Assembly (NCBI RefSeq): GCF_014696435.1 | Contig: NZ_JACJQG010000009.1 | Location: 1-64,000, forward strand | Direction of reading: 5' to 3' | DNA from: Calothrix anomala FACHB-343 | GTDB lineage: Bacteria; Cyanobacteriota; Cyanobacteriia; Cyanobacteriales; Nostocaceae | DNA: 64,000 nt | Part shown: piece by piece, positions 7,467 through 34,337 of the stretch | Position numbering within the stretch: the first letter of the stretch is position 1 | Layout: each line of letters begins with the position of its first letter | The notes under the pieces: model-generated | The model's database searches: none | What the model was told of the DNA's origin: nothing | What the model saw: the letters and a program-made list of their open reading frames with translations, nothing else | Translations under genes and position numbers: made by a program

Positions 7467-7627
7467 GGGAGCATCCCAAATGTGCAAAAACGCCCTCACC
7501 CTATAAGGGTGGGGCTAGAAATACGAAGCCTGCCTTCGCAGGCTATCAAACTTTTAGCCTGCGAAGGCAGGCTTTGTTGTTATAGCAATACCCTTATAGG
7601 GTATTGCGTCAAAATTGGGATGCTCCC
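7467..7627. mobile_element. 161-bp MITE, family 2, copy 1 (perfect 8-bp target duplication)
   Basis: Terminal inverted repeats GGGAGCATCCCAA and TTGGGATGCTCCC enclose a central 16-bp inverted repeat (GCCTGCCTTCGCAGGC) and a second palindrome near the right end (ATACCCTTATAGGGTAT). The element is flanked on both sides by CAGCCGAA (7459-7466 and 7628-7635), a target-site duplication that proves insertion. No coding capacity. Other 161-bp copies are at 13005-13165 and 35847-36007. Confidence 0.93.
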
Positions 7628-7772
7628 CAGCCGAATTTCCCTTGATGATAAAGTGTAGAGATAAAATTAGCATTGGCGCGTGGGCATGAGCTAGCGAGTG
7701 AATTAATTATATAGATGTGCAAATTTATCTAAATTAGCTTGTTTATTAATTGTGATGCTTGCACAAGATTTC

Positions 7773-7930
7773 TATACTTGATTTACAATCTGTATACTTG
7801 ATTCGCGAATTAGAAAACTTGATTTACAATCTGTATACTTGATTTACGATTCGTATACTTGATTCGCGAATTAGAAAACTTGATTTACGATTCATTTACT
7901 TGATTTACAAGTCGCAAAACTTAATTTGCA
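7773..7930. repeat. Array of 20-21-bp degenerate repeats
   Basis: Eight consecutive units of 20 or 21 bp share the core ACTTGATT. Units start at 7773, 7793, 7814, 7834, 7854, 7875, 7895 and 7915. Units 1-3 and 4-6 form a 61-bp higher-order duplication. There is no open frame through the array. It lies in the 950-bp spacer between the divergent acyltransferase and TPR genes, about 330 bp upstream of the latter. A related array in the opposite orientation is at 28705-28935. Confidence 0.85.
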
Positions 7931-8256
7931 GTGGGATTTTCAATAAAAATGAAACTACTCTAGAATAGCGATCGCATTTGGGTTTTTAGCTAATTGTAAA
8001 GTTTTTACCCAAGTATTAATACTGAATTTTTGCGTTTTTATTAAACAGTTATTTTTCTCAATACCACGATAAATCATCAGTTATAGTCTACGTAAATATA
8101 CTTAATTTGTATAAGTTTGTCTATTTAGCGCTAGTTGCAAGCTACAAGCGAGGGAAATTTTTGCATAACCTCCAGCAACTCAGAGATATATAGGGGTGAA
8201 GCAAGTAAATTAACTTTAGAACTAGTTAAAAACTTAGTACTTTAGGAGAAATAGCA

Positions 8257-8763
8257 ATGAAAGGGTTAAAATTTGCCGTCGCTATAATTGCCTTAGCAAC
8301 ATTAACTCATGCTCCCAAAGCTGAAGCCACAAGCTTATTCAACAATCCCCAAACAGCAGCAGCAAAACTCATAGCACAAGTACCAGCAGAAAATAACGCT
8401 GAAGCTTCCCTCAAACGGGGAATTGAACGTTTAGACAAAGAAGACTATCAAGGTGCTGCAACTGAATTTAGCAATGTTTTGAAAATTGAACCGAACAATA
8501 TTTATGCTTATGTTGGTAGAGGTGCGGCGAGGATGTATCTCAACGAATACCAATTAGCAAAATCTGACTTTGACAGTGCTTTAAAGATTACGCCTGATAT
8601 TTCTTTAGCTTACTATTTTCGCGGTTTTACCAATTTGGCATTAAAAGATAAAGCCGCCGCACTCGCTGATTTACGCCAAGCATCTACTTTATTTAAACAA
8701 GAAAATAAATTAGATTTGGCGCAAAAAGCTGATAACGCCATTAAAGAAATTGAAGCTAGTTAA
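8257..8763 (+). CDS. Exported TPR-repeat protein
   Basis: 168 residues. An N-terminal signal peptide (MKGLKFAVAIIALATLTHAPKAEA) is followed by about three tetratricopeptide repeats, from near residue 48 (AEASLKRGIERLDKEDYQGA) to the C-terminus. TPR arrays are protein-binding scaffolds, so this is probably a periplasmic adaptor. The start has a strong Shine-Dalgarno sequence (TTAGGAGAA) 7-8 nt before the ATG. The TPR-CHAT gene follows after a 76-nt spacer filled by a heptamer repeat, and a functional link between the two is plausible. No specific partner can be named. Confidence 0.82.
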   Translation: MKGLKFAVAIIALATLTHAPKAEATSLFNNPQTAAAKLIAQVPAENNAEASLKRGIERLDKEDYQGAATEFSNVLKIEPNNIYAYVGRGAARMYLNEYQLAKSDFDSALKITPDISLAYYFRGFTNLALKDKAAALADLRQASTLFKQENKLDLAQKADNAIKEIEAS

Positions 8764-8801
8764 ATGTTAACTGTTGACTGTTGACTGTTGACTGTTGACT
8801 G
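8764..8801. repeat. TTGACTG heptamer repeat
   Basis: Five near-perfect TTGACTG units begin directly after the stop codon of the TPR gene. The unit also occurs at 27330-27385 and, as TTGACAG, at 27194-27255. Confidence 0.85.
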
Positions 8802-8839
8802 CATTTATTTAGGTTGTGGAGTATGCTGGAGAATTGGTG

Positions 8840-11581
8840 ATGAACTACCGTTGGCAATATCATATTCTTGCTTTTGTAGTCCCCTTGCTAATTCTCCAGT
8901 CTGAAGCTGTTTGCTTTGTTCCTCTTCCTCTGATGGCGCAAACAAAAACCCCACAAGAACGCAATAGCGAAGCTATCAAGCTTTTTTATTTAGGGCTTGA
9001 GCAGTACAACCAAGGTAAATATCAAGAAGCATTAGAAACCTTACAACAAGCATTAATAATTGTTAGAGACATTCAAGCGCGTCAGGGTGAAAGCTTAATT
9101 CTTTATCAAATAGGACAAGTATATGAAAAATTGCGAGCTTACACCAAAGCAATCGAATTTTATCAGCAAGCATTAGCAATTGGTAAAGAAATTTATAATC
9201 AGGATTTAGTAGGAAAAATTCACAATCAAATAGGCGAAGTTTATCGCCAGATGCAAAACTATAATCAAGCTTTGCAAGCTTATCAGCAAGCTTTAAACTT
9301 TTACAAACAAATTAATAATCCTATCGGGCAAGGTTTAACTCTCAACTATATTGGTCAAATTTACAACGAATTAAAAGAAGATCAGAAAGCTTTAGATGCC
9401 TATCAACAAGCTTTAGCTATTCTGATAAAACTCAATGATAAATTAGGGTTAGTAGCTACTTACAAAAATCTGGGATTTACCTATGAAAACTTAGGGGAAT
9501 ATAGTAAAGCTTTAGATGCTTATCAACAAGCTTTAGCCTTAATTCCGCAAACTGAGTATCCCGTAGGCGCAGGAGCAATATTGGATAGTATTGCTAGTGT
9601 TTATACGATTATTGGAAAGTATACTAAAGCATTAGATATTTATCAGCAAGCTTTAGAAACTGCTAAAAAAGCAAATAATCAAGGGGGAGAAAGTTTAACT
9701 CTGCATAATATTGGTGGAGTTTACTACAGATTAGGACAATACCCACAAGCGTTAAAATTTTATCAACAAGCTTTAGCTCTTAGTAGACAAATTAGCGAAA
9801 AGGTAGCAGAAAGTAGTATTCTCAATAGTATTGGACTAGTTTATCAGCAAGAAGAAAAATATCAAGAAGCATTGCCTTTTTATCAAGCAGCTTTAAAAAT
9901 TGTCCGCACAGATAATAATTTATCTACAGAAAAAGCAGCAGCAATTTTGAACAATATTGGCTTGGCTTACAGAGGTTTGGGGGAATATAATCAAGCTTTA
10001 GATGTTTATCAGCAATCTTTAGCAATTATTAACCGTGGTGGCTCGGAGATTGGTAAAGGAACAACTCTCAATAATATTGGAGTAGTTTACTTTCATTTAA
10101 AAGAATATGGTAAAGCATTAGAATTTTCTCAGCAAGCTTTGGCGATTCGTCAACGGATTGGCGATCGCGCTGGAGTAGGAGATACCCTAAATAATATTGG
10201 CGCAGTGTATCAAAGTTTAAAAGATTACGATAAAGCCGAGAAAACTTTACTCGCGGCTCTGGAAATTTGGGAATCTTTACGTCAAGGTTTAACTGATGCT
10301 CAGAAAATTTCTATTTTTGAAAATCAAGCTAAAAGCTATCGGTTGTTGCAAGAAGTATTAATTGCCCAGAATAAAATTAATTCTGCCTTAGAAGTGAGCG
10401 ATCGCGCTAGAGCTAGAGCCTTTATTGAGTTACTAGCCGCTAAACAATCACAGACAGCAAACCCGCAGTTAGATATCAAACCTCTGACAATCGAGCAAAT
10501 TCAAAATATCGCTAAAGTTGAGAATGCAACTATAGTTCAATATTCAATCATCGATGATAAATTACTTTATATTTGGCTAATCAAACCTACAGGTGAAATT
10601 ACCTTTAAGCCAGTTGATTTATCAAAAGCTACTGATACTCCTCTCTCACAACTTGTGACTATTAGCCGTAAAGCTATGGGAGTATTAGATCGTGGGATTT
10701 TTCAACCCCAATCTAGCCTACAACCTAATCCAACTCAGCAGCTACAAAAACTCTACCAAATATTAATTAAACCAATTGTCCAAGATTTACCAACAGATGC
10801 TAACGCCCGTGTTATCTTTGTTCCTCAAGAATCGCTATTTGTAGTACCTTTTGCCGCACTACAAGATGAACAAGGCAAGTATTTAATCGATAAACATACT
10901 ATTTTAACTGCACCAGCTATTCAAGTTTTAGAATTAACTCGCAAGCAAAAACAAAACCTTAACCAATCTCTGAAAGATGTGCTGGTGGTTGGGAATCCGA
11001 TGATGCCAAAAATTCCCATTACAGAGGAAAAATTAGCACCGCTTCCTGGTGCAGAAAAAGAAGCAAAACAAATTGCTGAATTATTGAAAACCCAAGCGAT
11101 TATTGGGAATAAAGCCACAGAAACAACCATTGTGAGCAAGATGAAGCAAGCCAGGATAATTCACTTTGCTACTCACGGCTTACTCGATGATTTTAAAGGA
11201 TTGGGCGTACCTGGAGCGATCGCTCTCACAGCCAGCAATCAAGATGACGGCTTTCTCACCAGTAGCGAAATCCTTGATATGAAACTCAGCGCCGAACTCG
11301 TAGTTCTCAGCGCTTGTAACACTGGCGGCGGAAACATTACAGGCGATGGTGTCATTGGTTTATCCCGTTCTTTAATTACTGCTGGCGTACCCAGTGTCAT
11401 TGTTTCTCTGTGGGCTGTAAATGATGATTCCACCGCCTTTTTAATGAGCGAATTTTATCGCCAACTCCAAAAGAATCCTGATAAAGCTGTGGCGTTACGT
11501 CAAGCAATACTGACTACCAAAAAACAATATTCCCATCCTTTCGACTGGGCTGCATTTACCCTAATTGGTGAAGCAGATTAA
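8840..11581 (+). CDS. TPR-CHAT domain protein (caspase-like peptidase family), exported
   Basis: About 913 residues. A signal peptide (MNYRWQYHILAFVVPLLILQSEA) precedes eleven or twelve TPR units, many ending in YQQALA, up to about residue 480. A C-terminal CHAT domain follows. The predicted catalytic dyad is visible as the His of HFATHGLLDD (about residue 778) and the Cys of LSACNTGGGN (about 824), followed by the family's GLSRSLITAGVPSVIVSLW segment. CHAT domains belong to the caspase/separase clan; in bacteria the TPR part is thought to present substrates. The ATG at 8840 with GGAG 8 nt upstream is preferred to a GTG at 8816. It lies downstream of a small exported TPR gene. Substrate and role are unknown. 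Confidence 0.88.
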   Translation: MNYRWQYHILAFVVPLLILQSEAVCFVPLPLMAQTKTPQERNSEAIKLFYLGLEQYNQGKYQEALETLQQALIIVRDIQARQGESLILYQIGQVYEKLRAYTKAIEFYQQALAIGKEIYNQDLVGKIHNQIGEVYRQMQNYNQALQAYQQALNFYKQINNPIGQGLTLNYIGQIYNELKEDQKALDAYQQALAILIKLNDKLGLVATYKNLGFTYENLGEYSKALDAYQQALALIPQTEYPVGAGAILDSIASVYTIIGKYTKALDIYQQALETAKKANNQGGESLTLHNIGGVYYRLGQYPQALKFYQQALALSRQISEKVAESSILNSIGLVYQQEEKYQEALPFYQAALKIVRTDNNLSTEKAAAILNNIGLAYRGLGEYNQALDVYQQSLAIINRGGSEIGKGTTLNNIGVVYFHLKEYGKALEFSQQALAIRQRIGDRAGVGDTLNNIGAVYQSLKDYDKAEKTLLAALEIWESLRQGLTDAQKISIFENQAKSYRLLQEVLIAQNKINSALEVSDRARARAFIELLAAKQSQTANPQLDIKPLTIEQIQNIAKVENATIVQYSIIDDKLLYIWLIKPTGEITFKPVDLSKATDTPLSQLVTISRKAMGVLDRGIFQPQSSLQPNPTQQLQKLYQILIKPIVQDLPTDANARVIFVPQESLFVVPFAALQDEQGKYLIDKHTILTAPAIQVLELTRKQKQNLNQSLKDVLVVGNPMMPKIPITEEKLAPLPGAEKEAKQIAELLKTQAIIGNKATETTIVSKMKQARIIHFATHGLLDDFKGLGVPGAIALTASNQDDGFLTSSEILDMKLSAELVVLSACNTGGGNITGDGVIGLSRSLITAGVPSVIVSLWAVNDDSTAFLMSEFYRQLQKNPDKAVALRQAILTTKKQYSHPFDWAAFTLIGEAD

Positions 11582-27450: not shown

Positions 27451-28302
27451 TCACGATTTTTCCATTTTCTGTATTTGTCGCTCTTCTTGGCGCAAAATAA
27501 ACATATAGAATGCACCAAAAATCAAGATACCAAATACACCAAAAGAATAGGAAGCATTACCACCATGCCAACTATGAAAAGCCGCTTCATTTGTACCTAC
27601 CATTACGGCTAATATGGCAATTCTAATGGCATTGAGAAAAAAGCCTAAAAACATCGCAAATAGCGACACAAATAACCGCTTGTTTTTAGCTATGGGGAAC
27701 ATCACCAAGGCAATGATTGATATCCCTAAGAGATAATTTATCGTATCTATACCAGAACAACTAGGAACTACTTTGACGCTACCAGTAGGAAGATGAATAT
27801 ATACCCCATTCAGGGTGACATCAAAACCTAAATACCATAAAATTAGACTAGCAAATTTAGCACTATAAGGGGAAATATCTAAAAATAACTCAGCTAAAAC
27901 GCTAGGTATTTCCAGGAAAAATAAAATAATCAATGCTTCCCAATATTGCTTTACACCCTTAAAGCCAGAGGCTAATAAACCTACACCAATAGCTGAAGCT
28001 AAGGGTAAAAGACGAATAATATATCCTAAATTATGAGTTGTACTTTGCCATAGTACCCAACTAATTATCAGCCAACCAACAACACTGGAGAAAACATCAC
28101 TTTCAAAGTTGAATGTATGGCGTTTATCCCATAAAATCGAACCGATCGCAAAGAAAAATAACAGACTCATGCCTAAATGTCCGACATCATGAGCTTTCCA
28201 AACTAAGGTAAGACAAATGGCGGCTAGCCCAGCAGCAATGCTTGCAAGCCAGAATGGTTCTGTTTTCAGGATTTGAGATGGTTTGAGATGAGTAATATTC
28301 AT
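27451..28302 (-). CDS. Cyanoexosortase (exosortase/archaeosortase family)
   Basis: 283 residues with about eight membrane helices. The exosortase catalytic triad is visible: Cys182 in VVPSCSGIDT, Arg227 in FFLNAIRIAIL and His243 in AAFHSWHGG. These transpeptidase-like membrane enzymes cut PEP-CTERM proteins and pass them to the cell surface or matrix. It most resembles the cyanoexosortase A type. A PEP-CTERM substrate lies 11 kb away (15932-16609). The small system-associated protein that often accompanies such genes is not next to it: the 297 bp downstream is only short repeats, and upstream there is 1 kb of repeat DNA. The start is ATG at 28300-28302. Confidence 0.88.
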   Translation of the reverse strand: MNITHLKPSQILKTEPFWLASIAAGLAAICLTLVWKAHDVGHLGMSLLFFFAIGSILWDKRHTFNFESDVFSSVVGWLIISWVLWQSTTHNLGYIIRLLPLASAIGVGLLASGFKGVKQYWEALIILFFLEIPSVLAELFLDISPYSAKFASLILWYLGFDVTLNGVYIHLPTGSVKVVPSCSGIDTINYLLGISIIALVMFPIAKNKRLFVSLFAMFLGFFLNAIRIAILAVMVGTNEAAFHSWHGGNASYSFGVFGILIFGAFYMFILRQEERQIQKMEKS

Positions 28303-28557
28303 TGTTAGAGTGAGTTTGCGAATATAGCTAGAAATACAAAAATATTCGCCCTAAGTTTGTAGCTTATGGGCGTTGTGAATGGTTGATGCTCCCGGAATAA
28401 CTAACTGTAAATCTATGACTATTATTGAGTTTTGGTTATTTTAAATGTGATTTATATGTCTTAATGTAATCAAGATTTAAGTATAAGAACGGATATTAAA
28501 TAAATTCTTTATAAAGAAGAGGTAGAAATATATGAATTTTTGGTGAAAGGATTTGGT

Positions 28558-28591
28558 ATTGGGTATGGGGCATGGGGCATTGGGCATGGGG
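28558..28591. repeat. GGGCATG/GGGCATT heptamer repeat
   Basis: Four to five GGGCATG, GGGTATG or GGGCATT units in the 1-kb spacer between the exosortase and RecB-like genes. Confidence 0.8.
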
Positions 28592-28704
28592 TAAAGGCTT
28601 GAAGTTAAGTTTTTTTGCTCAAATGCGCCAACTTTATCATTTACATATATTGAGGACTCATTTTTATATTTTTAGTAAAGAGAAATAGCGATCGCTTTCT
28701 CATT

Positions 28705-28935
28705 TATCGAAATCAAGTACTCATTTTCCTGTTTTAAGTAAGCAAAAAGCCATTTCACCTTCTCGTTAAGCCTTTTCGTCTACTCATTATTGTGTTTTCC
28801 GCAAGTGAAATACTATTTCACCTACTCAAAAAGCCTTATCGCTTACTCGTTTCGGTAAATCGCGTACTCGTTTTGGTGTTTTCCGCAGGTAAAAAGCCAT
28901 ATCGCTTACCCATTTTGGTGTTTTCCGCAGGTAAA
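28705..28935. repeat. Eleven consecutive degenerate 21-bp repeats
   Basis: From 28705 the sequence divides exactly into eleven 21-bp units (231 bp) without indels. Many end in TACTCATT or TACTCGTT, alternating with units containing TTTTCCGCAGGTAAA; one unit is repeated exactly (28873-28893 and 28915-28935). No frame is open through the array on the plus strand. On the minus strand it contains TACTTGATTT, the core of the array at 7773-7930, so the two arrays are related and inverted. The units are too degenerate and lack constant spacers, so it is not a CRISPR array. Confidence 0.85.
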
Positions 28936-29077
28936 AAGGTTTGGAAAAAAGAATTGGACAGATGGTAGGGGCATGGCATTGCCATGCCCTCTAGAATATA
29001 TTGATATGCCGAAAATATTATTTAAATTGGTATGACACCTAAGTTTTTCACAGATTTGTTTAGGTTCTCATCCCATT

Positions 29078-29188
29078 TACAGCAGTTTTCACCTATTTGA
29101 ACCACATCTGTCTTAGTAGGGAACATCGAAAATCTTTTGGTACATACAATAATTTTACTGGTGCCGTGCCCCTACAGCGTGGTCTATT
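29078..29188. mobile_element. MITE family 1, copy D (inverted, truncated)
   Basis: Inverted relative to the other copies (TACAGCAGTTTTCACC at its left). It is intact to TAGGGGCACGGC and TAGACCAC on the complementary strand, but the last 19 or so bases, including one terminus, are replaced by unrelated sequence before the 52-bp repeats. Confidence 0.8.
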
Positions 29189-29212
29189 TACTAATACATA
29201 TAGATTTCGCTT

Positions 29213-29348
29213 CAGGGCACGGCAGTGCCGATGCCCCTACAATTAATTGGTGTGATTCTGGTTTCAGGGCACGGCAGTGCCGATGCCCCTACAATTAATG
29301 GGTGTGATTCTGGTTTCAGGGTATGGCAGTGCCAATGCCCTACAATTA
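29213..29348. repeat. 52-bp tandem direct repeat reaching into a stop codon
   Basis: Units start at 29213, 29265 and 29317; two are complete and the third partial. Each contains a palindrome (GGCACGGCAGTGCC) and the sequence CCCCTACAATTAA. In the last unit, TTA of CAATTAA at 29346-29348 is the stop codon of the minus-strand RecB-like gene, so the repeat supplies the gene's end. Confidence 0.85.
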
Positions 29349-31523
29349 AACTGTAACCGCAGCCTGAGAATTAACGGTGATACAAGCATGAACTAAGGGT
29401 AACAAGGGGCCGATTTGTTCTTGTCCATTCACAGCTAAATCGCTATGACATAAGTAAACTTTCTCGGATACGCGGGAAAGTAAATCGGTTAAAATTCTTT
29501 GTAATCTTTGTTCTTCGGCTAATTTCTCATCTTCTGCTGTCCAAGGCGTTCCTAATCTTGATTGTAAAAATAAGGGCGCACCATATAATGTGGCTGCACC
29601 ACCTTTCGCCCAGAGTGGGGAACTCGCATCTAACCAAAAATGCCAACGATGAAATCTCCGGCTAGAACGGTATTGGAAGATGGTAGCTAATGTGACAGCT
29701 TTTCTGGCGGAGCCGATGGGGCGTAAAGGATAGGGGTTGGCGGTAATTGTACCCCGGCGCAGTAGTTGGATAAATTCGGCAATGGTGGATTCAACAGGGC
29801 TGAGTGCGGGTAATTTACTCTGGCTTTGGTGCAGTCTGGTGTTAATTTCCCAGTAATGTTGGGCGGTTTCTAATAATTCCCGTAAGGCTGCTAGTTGATC
29901 GTAGGGGGGGTTATTGTCTTTACAGAGAAAGTCTTGAATTGCTAGGTATAGTAGGGAAATTGGGCTAGGAATTAATCGCTGTTCTTGTTGCGATCGCTGT
30001 TTTTCAATCCATTGTAATATCTCGTTGTAGGCGGTAGTCGCTGCATAGCCAATGCGATCCCAGCGTTCAAAGGTGGTGACTGGTAGCAAATTTGGGCGTT
30101 CTGGGTGGGGTTCAAAGCAGTAATCGGCGATTAAGCCAGCGCGTACCGGATCGATGTCTGTGCTGAGTTCGCTGGAATCTATTGGTTTTTGTCTGCGACT
30201 TAATACCACTAGCATCTCGGCTACGGCATCTCGGTCTACTAAGCGTCCTAAACCGGGATAAACTAAAGCCAGCATGGTGAGTAATGCCCTAATTGCAGGC
30301 GAACTAATTAAAGGGCGTTGATCGTTGAGGGCTTCTACGGGGATATTTTGTTTGTTGAGGATTTCAATTAAAGTATAACGGGCGATCGCATCTAAACCAG
30401 GTGCAATTACAGCTACTTCTTCCGGTTCTACTTCCCCGGATTTAATCGCATTCACGATGATCTCCGCAGTTTGCCGCAATAAATGGGCGCGGGATGTGGT
30501 TTGAATTGACTGTACTGTTTCTGGTAAGCTCAACATTACCATCGGTTGCGTGGCTAATTCTACCATTGAGCTAGCCAAGTTCATGGCTAAGGATTCTCGC
30601 GGCGGGCTGATTAAAGATTCCACCTGACAACGCTCGGCTAATTCTGCTAAATATTCGGGATCTGCGCCTAATCCCAAGCGTACTGCACCTTCAGGATTGT
30701 AGCTAAACGCGCCGACAGCCCCTTGATTTAGTAAGAACTCAAATAAATTGCGGGCGATCGCGGGATAATCATCAACATCATCGGCTAATACTGCTTGGTA
30801 GCGCTTGGCTAAATGCTGTTGATATTGTGGATTGGGTAAGAGATGGTGATTGTAGAGTTCGCTAATAATCCCATAGGTGAGCAATCCTCTGTGTAAGCAC
30901 CAATCGCGCCAATCTAGCAGCAAAGAGGCGAGAAATTCCGGTTCTAAATTAATTGGGTTATCTGCCAATCCCCTTGCTAAAATTTCGGATATGCGATCGC
31001 ATTTTTCACCGCTATATGCTGCTAATTGCAATAAGTCGAGAATCCGCCGCACTAGTCGGTACTCACTCATTCCTGCCAATTTTAAAATTTCTGCGTCTAA
31101 ATGCGATCGCCATAATTTAGTTGCTAGTTCCTGTTCGGTTTCTGGGCGTAACCTCACCGGAAATTGGGCGTTTAGCTGTAACGACTGTATCAGCAACGGC
31201 CAAAATAAAATCACTTCATCCTGAAAGAATCCTAAAGGTGTCTTCGCCCTTACCGGAAATTTACCCGATGTCGCAGTAACAATTCTATCTCCTAATTCTC
31301 TGCGGTTATCATCGTTAGCAGCTAACAGCAAAACTCCCGGTTCAGTTTGTCGAAGTTCCCAGCTTTTCTGTACAGAGTTGCCTTTTTTTTTATTTTTGTG
31401 GTTAGTATAAAATGAGTCAATAGCCTGATGATGATTTTGTAACCAGCTGCATAACTGCCCAACTAAACGAGCAGTTTTACCACTACGGCTACCACCAACA
31501 ATCCAAAGCGAATCTAAAGCCAC
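29346..31523 (-). CDS. RecB/AddB-like superfamily I P-loop protein
   Basis: 725 residues. A Walker A motif lies near the N-terminus (GGSRSGKT, residues 10-17). Later segments resemble inactive or simplified helicase subunits: ILFWPLLIQSLQLNA, VLADDVDDYPAIARNLFEFLL (Walker B-like DDVDD), EVAVIAPGLDAIARYTLIEIL and QRPLISSPAIRALLTMLAL (motif IV-VI-like). This fits a large cyanobacterial protein related to UvrD/RecB helicases and probably to the AddB subunit, acting on broken DNA. A C-terminal nuclease motif is not evident. The start is GTG with AGGAG upstream and no alternative ATG. It diverges from pcxA. The exact role is inferred. Confidence 0.7.
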   Translation of the reverse strand: MALDSLWIVGGSRSGKTARLVGQLCSWLQNHHQAIDSFYTNHKNKKKGNSVQKSWELRQTEPGVLLLAANDDNRRELGDRIVTATSGKFPVRAKTPLGFFQDEVILFWPLLIQSLQLNAQFPVRLRPETEQELATKLWRSHLDAEILKLAGMSEYRLVRRILDLLQLAAYSGEKCDRISEILARGLADNPINLEPEFLASLLLDWRDWCLHRGLLTYGIISELYNHHLLPNPQYQQHLAKRYQAVLADDVDDYPAIARNLFEFLLNQGAVGAFSYNPEGAVRLGLGADPEYLAELAERCQVESLISPPRESLAMNLASSMVELATQPMVMLSLPETVQSIQTTSRAHLLRQTAEIIVNAIKSGEVEPEEVAVIAPGLDAIARYTLIEILNKQNIPVEALNDQRPLISSPAIRALLTMLALVYPGLGRLVDRDAVAEMLVVLSRRQKPIDSSELSTDIDPVRAGLIADYCFEPHPERPNLLPVTTFERWDRIGYAATTAYNEILQWIEKQRSQQEQRLIPSPISLLYLAIQDFLCKDNNPPYDQLAALRELLETAQHYWEINTRLHQSQSKLPALSPVESTIAEFIQLLRRGTITANPYPLRPIGSARKAVTLATIFQYRSSRRFHRWHFWLDASSPLWAKGGAATLYGAPLFLQSRLGTPWTAEDEKLAEEQRLQRILTDLLSRVSEKVYLCHSDLAVNGQEQIGPLLPLVHACITVNSQAAVTV

Positions 31524-31610
31524 AAACCCTCTCCTTGTAGATTTGTTAGTATACTTCGTGCGTTAATTTAAGGTTAAGAATCACCAAATCATGCTGGATG
31601 ATTGCCAACG

Positions 31611-32921
31611 ATGAAAAACTCTGTTTTTGGTCAAAAAATTTACTCGTTTTTATTAGGGCTTTACCGATGGTACTTACGCACCCCAGAACGTTCCCTAGAT
31701 GAGGCTTACAACGCAGCCTTAAAAATTAAAGCCTTAGAAGATAAACATTTTAATGGTAATAAAATAGAGCCATTATCAACCATGTACAGTAATAATGTCA
31801 TGGATTATTTTCAAGCCGATCTGAAGCAGCAATTAAAAATTGCCAGAATGCGACTGACAGAGTTTAAAAGTAGCCGTTGGTTTTTAAACGAAGCTAATCA
31901 AAAAGCTGCTCAGGAAGCAGGTGTAGAATATCCAGAACTGTCATTAATTTTAGAAAAGCTCAGATTCATTGACCACATTACCTCCAAATATACCTTCAAT
32001 GAAACCGAAGCAAGCTCTGTAGTTGTTGTCGATAAACCTCCCCAGAGTAAAACTGATTTAACAATTAATCAACCAGTAACGCCAAAGATAGCGAATAATG
32101 GTGCTAAGAAACCCCAGGGAAAAGCGAATACAACAGGTATATTACCCAGGTCAATTTTAAGTACCATCACTCGATTACAAGTTGAATTAGATCCCAATTC
32201 CGAACAAGATGTAGTTCAAAATTTTCGCCAAGCTCAACGCCGAACAATTATATCTATCAGGTTTCTTTTATTATTAGTAATTGTACCACTTTTAACTCAC
32301 CAATTAGCAAAAGCTTTGGTGGTGGGGCCGCTAGTAGAAAAATTTAGAGATGCGGAAACAGTGCAAATTTTTCTAAATGCGGAAATGGAAGAAGAAGCAT
32401 TAGTAGAGTTAGAAAGATTTGAAGAAAGAATTAAATTTCAAAGTTTGATTAGCAACGCACCACCCCTATCATCTGAGGAAGTAGAAACTCAGATGCATGA
32501 GAAAGCCGGCGAACTGGCTAAGGAATTCAAAGAAGAAAGCGCTAATGCGATAAAAAATGTATTTTCCGATATGTTTTCTGTAGGTGCTTTTATTTGGCTG
32601 TTGTTAGTCAGTAAACCTTCTATCGCCATTATCAAAGAATTTTTCGATAATGTAGTTTATGGTTTGAGTGATAGCGCCAAGGCATTTATTATCATTTTGT
32701 TTACCGATATATTTGTCGGGTTTCACTCCCCCCATGGTTGGGAAGTAATTTTAGAAGGTTTATCGCGTCATTGGGGATTACCAGCAAATCGTGATTTTAT
32801 CTTCTTATTTATTGCCACATTTCCAGTGATTTTAGATACGATTTTCAAATACTGGATTTTCCGCTACTTGAACCGAATTTCACCTTCGGCGGTGGCAACA
32901 TATCATAATATGAATGAGTAA
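31611..32921 (+). CDS. pcxA: Proton extrusion protein PcxA (CemA/CotA family)
   Basis: About 436 residues. The soluble N-terminal half begins YSFLLGLYRWYLRTPERSLD, characteristic of cyanobacterial PcxA. A membrane half follows with helices at FLLLLVIVPLLTHQLAKAL, FSVGAFIWLLLVSKPSIAII, AFIIILFTDIFVGFHS and DFIFLFIATFPVILDTIF. The HSPHGWE motif is conserved in chloroplast CemA. It is needed for light-dependent proton release and supports inorganic carbon uptake; it resides in the inner envelope or cytoplasmic membrane. The ATG at 31611 is preferred; a TTG three codons earlier is possible. It is monocistronic, divergent from the RecB-like gene. Confidence 0.93.
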   Translation: MKNSVFGQKIYSFLLGLYRWYLRTPERSLDEAYNAALKIKALEDKHFNGNKIEPLSTMYSNNVMDYFQADLKQQLKIARMRLTEFKSSRWFLNEANQKAAQEAGVEYPELSLILEKLRFIDHITSKYTFNETEASSVVVVDKPPQSKTDLTINQPVTPKIANNGAKKPQGKANTTGILPRSILSTITRLQVELDPNSEQDVVQNFRQAQRRTIISIRFLLLLVIVPLLTHQLAKALVVGPLVEKFRDAETVQIFLNAEMEEEALVELERFEERIKFQSLISNAPPLSSEEVETQMHEKAGELAKEFKEESANAIKNVFSDMFSVGAFIWLLLVSKPSIAIIKEFFDNVVYGLSDSAKAFIIILFTDIFVGFHSPHGWEVILEGLSRHWGLPANRDFIFLFIATFPVILDTIFKYWIFRYLNRISPSAVATYHNMNE

Positions 32922-32927
32922 TTGGGC

Positions 32928-33032
32928 ATTGGGCATGGGGCATGGGGCATTGGGCATGGGGCATTGGGACAAGGGGGACAAGGGAGACAAGGGGGAAAAA
33001 TAACAAATGACTATTGACTATTGACTATTGAC
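32928..33032. repeat. Two short tandem repeat blocks
   Basis: GGGCATG/GGGCATT heptamers (32928-32968) are followed by GACAAGGG units (to about 32995) and four TTGACTA units (33006-33032). They fill the whole spacer between pcxA and mltA. Confidence 0.85.
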
Positions 33033-33071
33033 AACTCTTGCCAGTATTTTTGTTACGCCGACTTACTTTAA

Positions 33072-34337
33072 ATGAAATTTAAATTTATTTATCTGACTAG
33101 TTTACCCGTTATAATTTTAATCTTATTAGTCAGAATTCCCTCGTTGGGGCATCTACCATTAAGTGCGCCAGAATGTCAACTTAAAAAGTGGCATTTACCA
33201 GGATTATTTAATAACAAAAATAACCAAAAAACGCCAGTATTAATAGCGCGATCGCCTGTTACTTGTTGTGTAGAGGATCGCTCTTGTATTGATGAGGCGA
33301 TATATCAAGGCGAAAATGGTAAAATTGGGGATAAAAAGGCGCTGTTAACTTCTATCGATCGCAGTTTACGCTACCTGCAAACTGCTAGAGCAGATGCGGC
33401 TTATGAGAATTATCAAATACCGGGAATTACCCGCGATCGCGTTTACAAAAGTTTGCTGCGCTTTCGTCAATTGTTACTCACAGCAAAATCTCCAACCGAA
33501 CTACATCAGGCGATCGCCAAAGAATTTGTCTATTATCAGTCAATTGGTAGAGATAGTAAAGGTTCTGTTTTATACACCGCATATTACGAACCACTGTACA
33601 CTGCAAGTCGCGTACCCACAGCAGAATACCGCTATCCGGTTTACAAAGCACCTCCCGATTTAGCTTCCTGGAGTTTACCCCACCCAACGCGCTTAGAACT
33701 CGAAGGTGCAGATGGTTTACAAGGTTCTAAGGGGAAATTGCGGGGATTAGAGTTATTTTGGTTTCGCGATCGCCTCGAACCATACATGGTACAAATTCAA
33801 GGTTCAGCCAAACTGCAATTAACTGATGGTACAAAAACCAGCATCGGTTACGCAGGTAATATCGCCTATAACTACAAAAGCATAGGTAGAGAACTGGCGA
33901 ATGATGGGAAATTACCCTTAGAAGGGATGACTATGCCCATAATTCTCGATTATTTTCATAAGTATCCCCAAGAATTAAACGTATATATTCCTCGCGATCC
34001 CAGCTTTGTCTTTTTTCAAGAAACAAAAGGCGCGCCAGCACAAGGTTCAATCGGACAACCAATCACCGCAGAACGTTCAATTGCTACAGATAAATCTTTA
34101 ATGCCCCCCGGTGCTTTAGCATTAATTAGGGCTGATTTTCCCTTTGCTGATGAGAAAGGTAAATTAGAGCATCGAGTCGTCAGTCGTTACGTACTCGATC
34201 AAGATACAGGCGGTGCAATTAAAGGTGCTGGAAGGGTGGATTACTTTTTAGGTACAGGTAAATTAGCAGGCGATCGCGCTGGTGTCACAGTCGGTAATGG
34301 ACAATTATTTTATTTACTACTGAAACCGCCAAATTAA
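33072..34337 (+). CDS. mltA: Membrane-bound lytic murein transglycosylase A
   Basis: 421 residues. An N-terminal membrane anchor (FIYLTSLPVIILILLVRI), rather than a lipobox Cys, is followed by the MltA barrel: GSVLYTAYYEPLYTASRVP near 155 and LELFWFRDRLEPYMVQIQGSA with GYAGNIAYNYKSIGREL near 240-275. The C-terminal 3D domain has its Asp residues in ERSIATDKSLM and LDQDTGGAIKGAGRVDYFLG, the latter holding the predicted catalytic Asp. It cleaves the glycan strands of peptidoglycan to anhydro-muropeptides. It is monocistronic; the start is ATG at 33072. Confidence 0.92.
   Translation: MKFKFIYLTSLPVIILILLVRIPSLGHLPLSAPECQLKKWHLPGLFNNKNNQKTPVLIARSPVTCCVEDRSCIDEAIYQGENGKIGDKKALLTSIDRSLRYLQTARADAAYENYQIPGITRDRVYKSLLRFRQLLLTAKSPTELHQAIAKEFVYYQSIGRDSKGSVLYTAYYEPLYTASRVPTAEYRYPVYKAPPDLASWSLPHPTRLELEGADGLQGSKGKLRGLELFWFRDRLEPYMVQIQGSAKLQLTDGTKTSIGYAGNIAYNYKSIGRELANDGKLPLEGMTMPIILDYFHKYPQELNVYIPRDPSFVFFQETKGAPAQGSIGQPITAERSIATDKSLMPPGALALIRADFPFADEKGKLEHRVVSRYVLDQDTGGAIKGAGRVDYFLGTGKLAGDRAGVTVGNGQLFYLLLKPPN

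Follow-up and report, generated by a model that had tools for sequence, protein, structure and literature searches.

The window analysed here, a 64,000-nucleotide stretch of Calothrix anomala FACHB-343 DNA, contains a run of 21-bp repeats described as diverged in sequence but not in phase. This locus raises the question of whether the spacing of such repeats is conserved beyond their sequence and, if so, what maintains it. The original prediction was of 11 phase-perfect units. Positions 28705-28935 indeed comprise 11 gapless 21-bp units that tile exactly from 28705, but the number was too low: the same lattice runs upstream of 28705 to a 5' limit at 28621, yielding 15 gapless units in total (28621-28935). 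Autocorrelation of 28705-28935, the check that had been proposed, bore out the period, with values of 0.44 at lag 21 (z 5.6), 0.50 at lag 42 (z 7.0) and 0.59 at lag 63 (z 9.5) relative to 2000 dinucleotide shuffles; lags 20 and 22 were at the background level of the same shuffles. The features of the locus, together with a second array in the window, are as follows.

28621..28935, plus strand: phase-locked array of 15 units of 21 bp with a higher-order repeat of 63 bp, delimited by tiling and lattice extension
28936..28940, plus strand: approximate break-off point of the window copy, which lacks units 16-19 and the tail present in complete copies, as does the orthologous site of the nearest relative, G001
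28548..29352, no strand: composite repeat block (heptamers, the array, other repeats); its counterpart in G005 is 23 bp
27451..28302, minus strand: flanking gene, cyanoexosortase A by family match (TIGR03763)
29346..31523, minus strand: flanking ORF of 725 aa, without NCBIfam or Pfam match at E 0.001
7773..7927, plus strand: second array, with a period of 61 (20+20+21) rather than 63; a different family

A 52-bp tandem repeat (2.7 copies, window 29211-29349) adjoins the array, and the 0.8-kb block around the two consists mostly of repeats.

The window array had been proposed to be related to, and inverted from, the array at 7.8 kb. The motif cited as shared, TACTTGATTT, is present on the minus strand of the window array and in the 7.8-kb array. 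The similarity of the two arrays was at chance level: the best ungapped score was 11, as compared with a mean of 9.5 and a maximum of 14 in 100 shuffles, and an exact match of 10 was reached in 9 of 100 shuffles. Moreover, the family profile, R1, did not match the 7.8-kb array at E up to 1. We therefore rejected kinship between the arrays, and with it the proposal that they form an inverted two-array system 21 kb apart. The 7.8-kb family occurs at two places that are identical over the 226-bp query by way of a segmental duplication, plus three diverged loci. The duplication, which carries the 7.8-kb array, is recent: window positions 7467-9460 matched G000:C68 at 1993 of 1994 bases (L021 versus L022, up to where the fetched locus stops).

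A lag scan of the window and 800 kb of G001 returned 49 arrays, of which 39 had a lag of 7 or 14; seven of the other 10 had a lag of 21, 42, 61 or 63. The possibility of several unrelated 21-bp families was dropped, as the arrays at L195 and L214 were read as heptad-coding frames and that at L182 as presumably TPR-type coding. By eye, the 21- and 42-bp arrays at L195:15450-15710 and L214:7665-7920 of G001 look like open heptad-peptide frames. At L180:4625-4835, also in G001, a near-perfect 21-bp array contains the palindrome ACATTAACAATGT in each unit; no likeness to the window-array family was seen.

A sequence search identified 26 distinct loci in the strain's own assembly at E below 1e-9, the window's included. 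Seventeen of these are close copies, the other 16 of which are 84-92% identical to the window copy. In complete copies, the array runs to about 19 units (~399 bp) and is accompanied by a short tail. All but one of the 26 loci overlap no ORF of at least 90 aa, the pattern of a dispersed intergenic repeat with many non-coding copies between genes. The window array is one copy, truncated at its 3' end, of a non-coding element that is dispersed between genes. The nearest relative, G001, contains 30 matches to the element, and at the site orthologous to the window's the array is still in phase. Further arrays are thus present in both genomes, and neither of the outcomes named as contrary to the original prediction, a lack of further arrays or a loss of phase in related strains, occurred.

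The element also occurs beyond these two genomes. Matches at E 1e-5 were found in at least 32 of 149 related genomes, including all nine listed genomes of the genus; this tally is a lower bound, with four candidates scored per genome, and some of the weaker matches are short. In an order-wide sample, at least 12 of 291 genomes, belonging to four families, matched the sequence profile under stricter filters, also a lower bound, with 12 candidates scored per genome. An exact 25-letter pattern was found in 49 stretches of a named genome collection, and the records are titled Nostocales or its genera, bar one MAG titled Oscillatoriales. Matches also occurred on a plasmid of three Tolypothrix/Microchaete strains, at four places per record. 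The one plasmid place inspected lies between annotated genes, with no replication gene among the seven features around it. Phages yielded no match to the element. A literature search, with most subscription journals outside its reach, found no description of the element.

To compare spacing with sequence, we aligned 19 orthologous pairs of loci from the strain's own genome and G001, a set that omits the 7 of 26 own loci without an assigned ortholog (L003, L006, L012, L016, L018, L162 and L163). Over the whole lattice, these pairs contained 339 substitutions in 6182 bp (5.5%) and three gaps, one of 21 bp and two of 2 bp. By contrast, intergenic DNA more than 120 bp from the arrays contained 389 substitutions in 6154 bp (6.3%) and 41 gaps (Fisher p 2.6e-8 for gaps versus substitutions). 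Excluding multiples of 21 in the lattice or of 7 in the flank left 2 versus 38 gaps (p 2.5e-8). Per substitution, gaps were about twelve times rarer in the lattice than in intergenic DNA, with nearly equal substitution rates. Protection from indels is a property of the lattice and not of the whole element, since DNA within 120 bp of the lattice, element tails included, had 14 gaps alongside 247 substitutions in 3318 bp. Coding DNA of the 19 pairs had 1163 substitutions in 24989 bp and four gaps. Both of the 2-bp lattice gaps were in the L008 pair, 6 bp apart, and probably offset each other, as all 16 spacings at the same place in G001 (L034) are 21. A generally raised rate of substitution in the arrays was also considered: the window pair differed at 8.5% versus 4.0% in its flank. 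This excess was gone in the 19-pair pool, and the idea was rejected.

Comparison of copies within the family gave a similar picture. Fourteen colinear copies differed by at least 149 substitutions and no off-phase indels, as compared with 12.1 expected (P 5e-6), in a set that omits L001, L003 and L005 (whole-unit difference or truncation) and L018-L020 (another subfamily) and was collected by similarity search, which could favour colinear copies. Together with the ortholog counts, these data bear out the original view of spacing as better conserved than sequence. Across 101 distinct loci from several genera (105 places minus four duplicates), dynamic programming with a scoring matrix built partly from own copies assigned 1354 of 1394 spacings to 21, 38 to 20, one to 19 and one to 22. 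When spacings of 15-27 were allowed cheaply, the counts were 1354 of 21, 42 of 20, one of 19 and two of 22. The 38 spacings of 20 bp were mostly in other lineages, and phase is thus not absolute; spacings of 22 bp were almost absent although those of 20 bp occur.

A further array is shared by four species (G002, G003, G006 and G008), in which it adjoins the gene equivalent to window 31602-32921 (PcxA family). Six pairwise comparisons over 320 bp of this array, whose end was chosen after the alignment was seen, gave 5 to 28 differences each and no gaps, as compared with one to five gaps in each neighbouring flank. In G003, one base is missing just past the compared stretch, such that the last unit is 20 bp. 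The gene that follows in the window (MltA family, 33072-34337) lies beyond the gap in G002 and was not found in the fetched stretches of G003, G006 and G008. In G004:C88, the gap equivalent to window 32921-33072 (L168) contains a different array, with a period of 42 (2 x 21), where G002, G003, G006 and G008 carry the 21-bp family; it is possibly a remodelled relative.

Within the unit, conservation was concentrated at A/T spots. Random units from different loci were 50% identical, yet in 50 loci A or T occupied positions 20, 21, 1, 8 and 9 in 98-99% of units; for position 15, the figure was 95%. Differences between orthologs (12 pairs) were depleted at these spots, with 18 of 233 at positions 20, 21, 1 and 2 versus 44 if evenly distributed and 14 of 233 at positions 7-9 versus 33, positions 2 and 7 having been joined to the spots after the counts were seen. 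When only private differences were considered, the protection was weak (9 of 47 versus 15.7 expected, p 0.04; 12 of the 19 ortholog pairs). In the middle part of the arrays of the 19 ortholog pairs, A-T exchanges made up 19% of substitutions versus 10% in the flanks (p 0.0016).

The conserved spacing had been ascribed to selection on helical phasing, for which the evidence is divided. In a wedge model, each of the 20 family arrays tested was predicted to be more curved than the average of its shuffles (mean-distance z -1.4 to -7.2); the 7.8-kb array was not. On the other hand, in the majority of 50 loci the strongest compositional period within the unit was 7 bp, with 10.5 bp second; simple bending towards one face is therefore not the whole story. 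By arithmetic, the two A/T spots fall on different faces of the helix. Palindromic units with compensating arms were dropped as an explanation, although not disproved: among 755 distinct units, positions were associated without a clear antidiagonal series, a result confounded by the mixture of unit types.

With respect to gene orientation, the arrays favour convergent gene ends. Among 69 arrays with both neighbours called, 24 lie in convergent gaps, 30 in same-direction gaps and 15 in divergent gaps. In the background, 800 kb of G001, convergent gaps number 17 of 144 intervals and make up 10% of the intergenic length, giving a p of 3e-8 that ignores relatedness among loci partly related by descent and leaves out 5 of 74 loci without a flanking ORF. 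In same-direction gaps, there was no strand preference (17 versus 13). On the main contig of G001, the distribution of 30 matches was compatible with uniformity (KS p 0.36); this genome has two dnaN matches.

We favour the interpretation, at a probability of roughly 0.4, that the dispersed non-coding element is a multi-site platform for a putative architectural protein and favours convergent gene ends. Each 21-bp unit would be one site for this putative DNA-binding protein, which may read the A/T spots via the minor groove, in which A.T is hard to tell from T.A; from such a reader, A/T spots in which A and T interchange would be expected. The fixed spacing is close to two helical turns, as in iteron-like arrays, and would place successive molecules on the same face of the DNA, where cooperative binding could generate a rigid or bent nucleoprotein platform. 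One indel would put all later sites out of register, while most substitutions would have little effect. Situated preferentially between convergent genes, the platforms may shape or insulate the chromosome there. We consider a protein platform to be the most economical functional reading, with a conversion-driven satellite and a mobile element as live rivals. Counting against it, 279 of the 291 genomes of the order had no match under the strict filters. A more far-reaching version, in which Nostocales carry chromosome-wide platforms of ~15-19 sites each, bound by a putative protein that polymerises by way of the A/T spots, with spacing as the code, to insulate or organise convergent junctions, is doubtful.

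To our knowledge, selection on spacing apart from sequence has seldom been shown for non-coding bacterial repeats, and the orthologous arrays of two close strains provide a clean measurement of the conservation of one versus the other. If a protein is behind the spacing, the element would reveal a chromosome-structuring or insulating system in multicellular cyanobacteria whose target code consists of spacing and A/T spots. Should conversion alone be responsible, the arrays illustrate how selection can be mimicked by a satellite in bacteria.

A somewhat improbable alternative to a protein platform is that the element is a non-autonomous mobile element, in which a transposase or recombinase acting in trans would recognise the array at many sites and mobilisation would require the unit spacing. 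Consistent with mobility, dispersed copies share edges. No array match was found between the window's flanking genes in G002-G008, nor at the L012 site in G001, where other sequence is present; on this basis, the element comes and goes. Such variation in presence between strains is as expected of a MITE. The plasmid matches of the three Tolypothrix/Microchaete strains (one place inspected) point in the same direction, and the bias towards convergent gaps is also what tolerated insertions would give. On inspection of the element edges by eye in the alignments, no target duplication or clear terminal inverted repeat was seen. A clean empty site was likewise not obtained, given the other sequence at the L012 site of G001 and the composite 0.8-kb block by which the window site differs. 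By contrast with the mobile reading, resident orthologous copies are protected from indels after insertion, whereas selection for mobility should let residents decay.

Less likely still is a satellite-like repeat that lacks a host function, in which exchange between copies of uniform length homogenises them and purges indels, thereby mimicking selected spacing. Exchange does seem to occur. In 12 of the 19 ortholog pairs, other copies contained both alleles of 164 of 211 differences at the corresponding place in the lattice (78%, versus 42% expected). In the same 12 pairs, adjacent differences numbered 32 versus 14.8 expected, and for 19 of 46 difference clusters one strain's haplotype was present in another copy of the same genome. 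Since alleles are shared with other copies and differences cluster, gene conversion contributes to the evolution of the arrays, and it could remove new indels. Nevertheless, exchange should affect substitutions and indels equally, and conversion does not easily explain how the 14 colinear copies accumulated their substitutions with no off-phase indel. The near absence of 22-bp spacings alongside 20-bp ones also argues against the satellite.

We regard as very unlikely an RNA with a structural or regulatory role, for instance in a 3' UTR, that would depend on fixed spacing to fold. On either strand, the L008 copy, which is complete and includes the tail, outperformed its shuffles in folding (z -4.1 and -3.3), unlike the window copy (z 0.5 and -0.9). 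For a set of 17 copies, consensus folds were weak (-14 and -27 kcal/mol over 449 columns), few of their pairs had changed on both sides (5 of 43 and 6 of 52), and Rfam contained no match to the element. The element thus showed little covariation and belongs to no family in Rfam, and the lack of strand preference in same-direction gaps also argues against an RNA, which we rejected.

Coding of heptapeptide repeats, active or as a remnant, is close to refuted and was discarded: the unit is a multiple of 3 (21 bp, or 7 codons), indels are only slightly commoner than in coding DNA, two G001 arrays were read as heptad-coding frames and one frame is open for up to 84 codons in some copies, but all six frames contain at least two stops in each of 20 copies, 20-bp units occur, and no three-base pattern was detected in variability among copies (0.129, 0.120, 0.116) or in ortholog differences (69, 79, 85).

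The element shares features with several known systems. In plasmid iterons, direct repeats about two helical turns apart are bound by protein in register. The element has the same fixed spacing, with binding that is putative, but differs from iterons in that its units vary in sequence and its 26 loci are spread over a large genome. The STRR heptamer (7 bp) and LTRR (37 bp) are repeats of heterocystous cyanobacteria that, like the element, occur in tandem between genes. The A/T content of the element has a 7-bp rhythm, but its unit is 21 bp rather than 7 or 37 and is not a 7-bp head-to-tail repeat, base identity at lag 7 having a z of 0.7. SDRs, very small mobile repeated elements dispersed in Nostocales genomes, are reportedly short single insertions (Elhai and colleagues), whereas the element is a ~400-bp phased array. 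NsiR1 is an sRNA whose arrays are, like the element, tandem direct repeats between genes in Nostocales, while the element has no Rfam match; the tandem NsiR1 arrays of heterocystous cyanobacteria are the topic of PMC9045159. In having many diverging, non-coding intergenic copies, the element resembles REP/BIME, REPIN and other dispersed bacterial repeats (PMC3116915, PMC3733652). According to the abstract of PMC3733652, REPs are palindromes of 20-40 bp; the element consists of about 19 gapless 21-bp units.

Two minor variations among copies were also observed. In the element tails, GCGATCGC is split in some copies by an insert of ~20 bp that looks like a small dispersed repeat (L003, L010 and L013 versus L009 and L012). 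In unit 9 of L010, the core TTTTCCGCAAG.AAAA is inverted in place with its length unchanged, as by a template switch at a hairpin.
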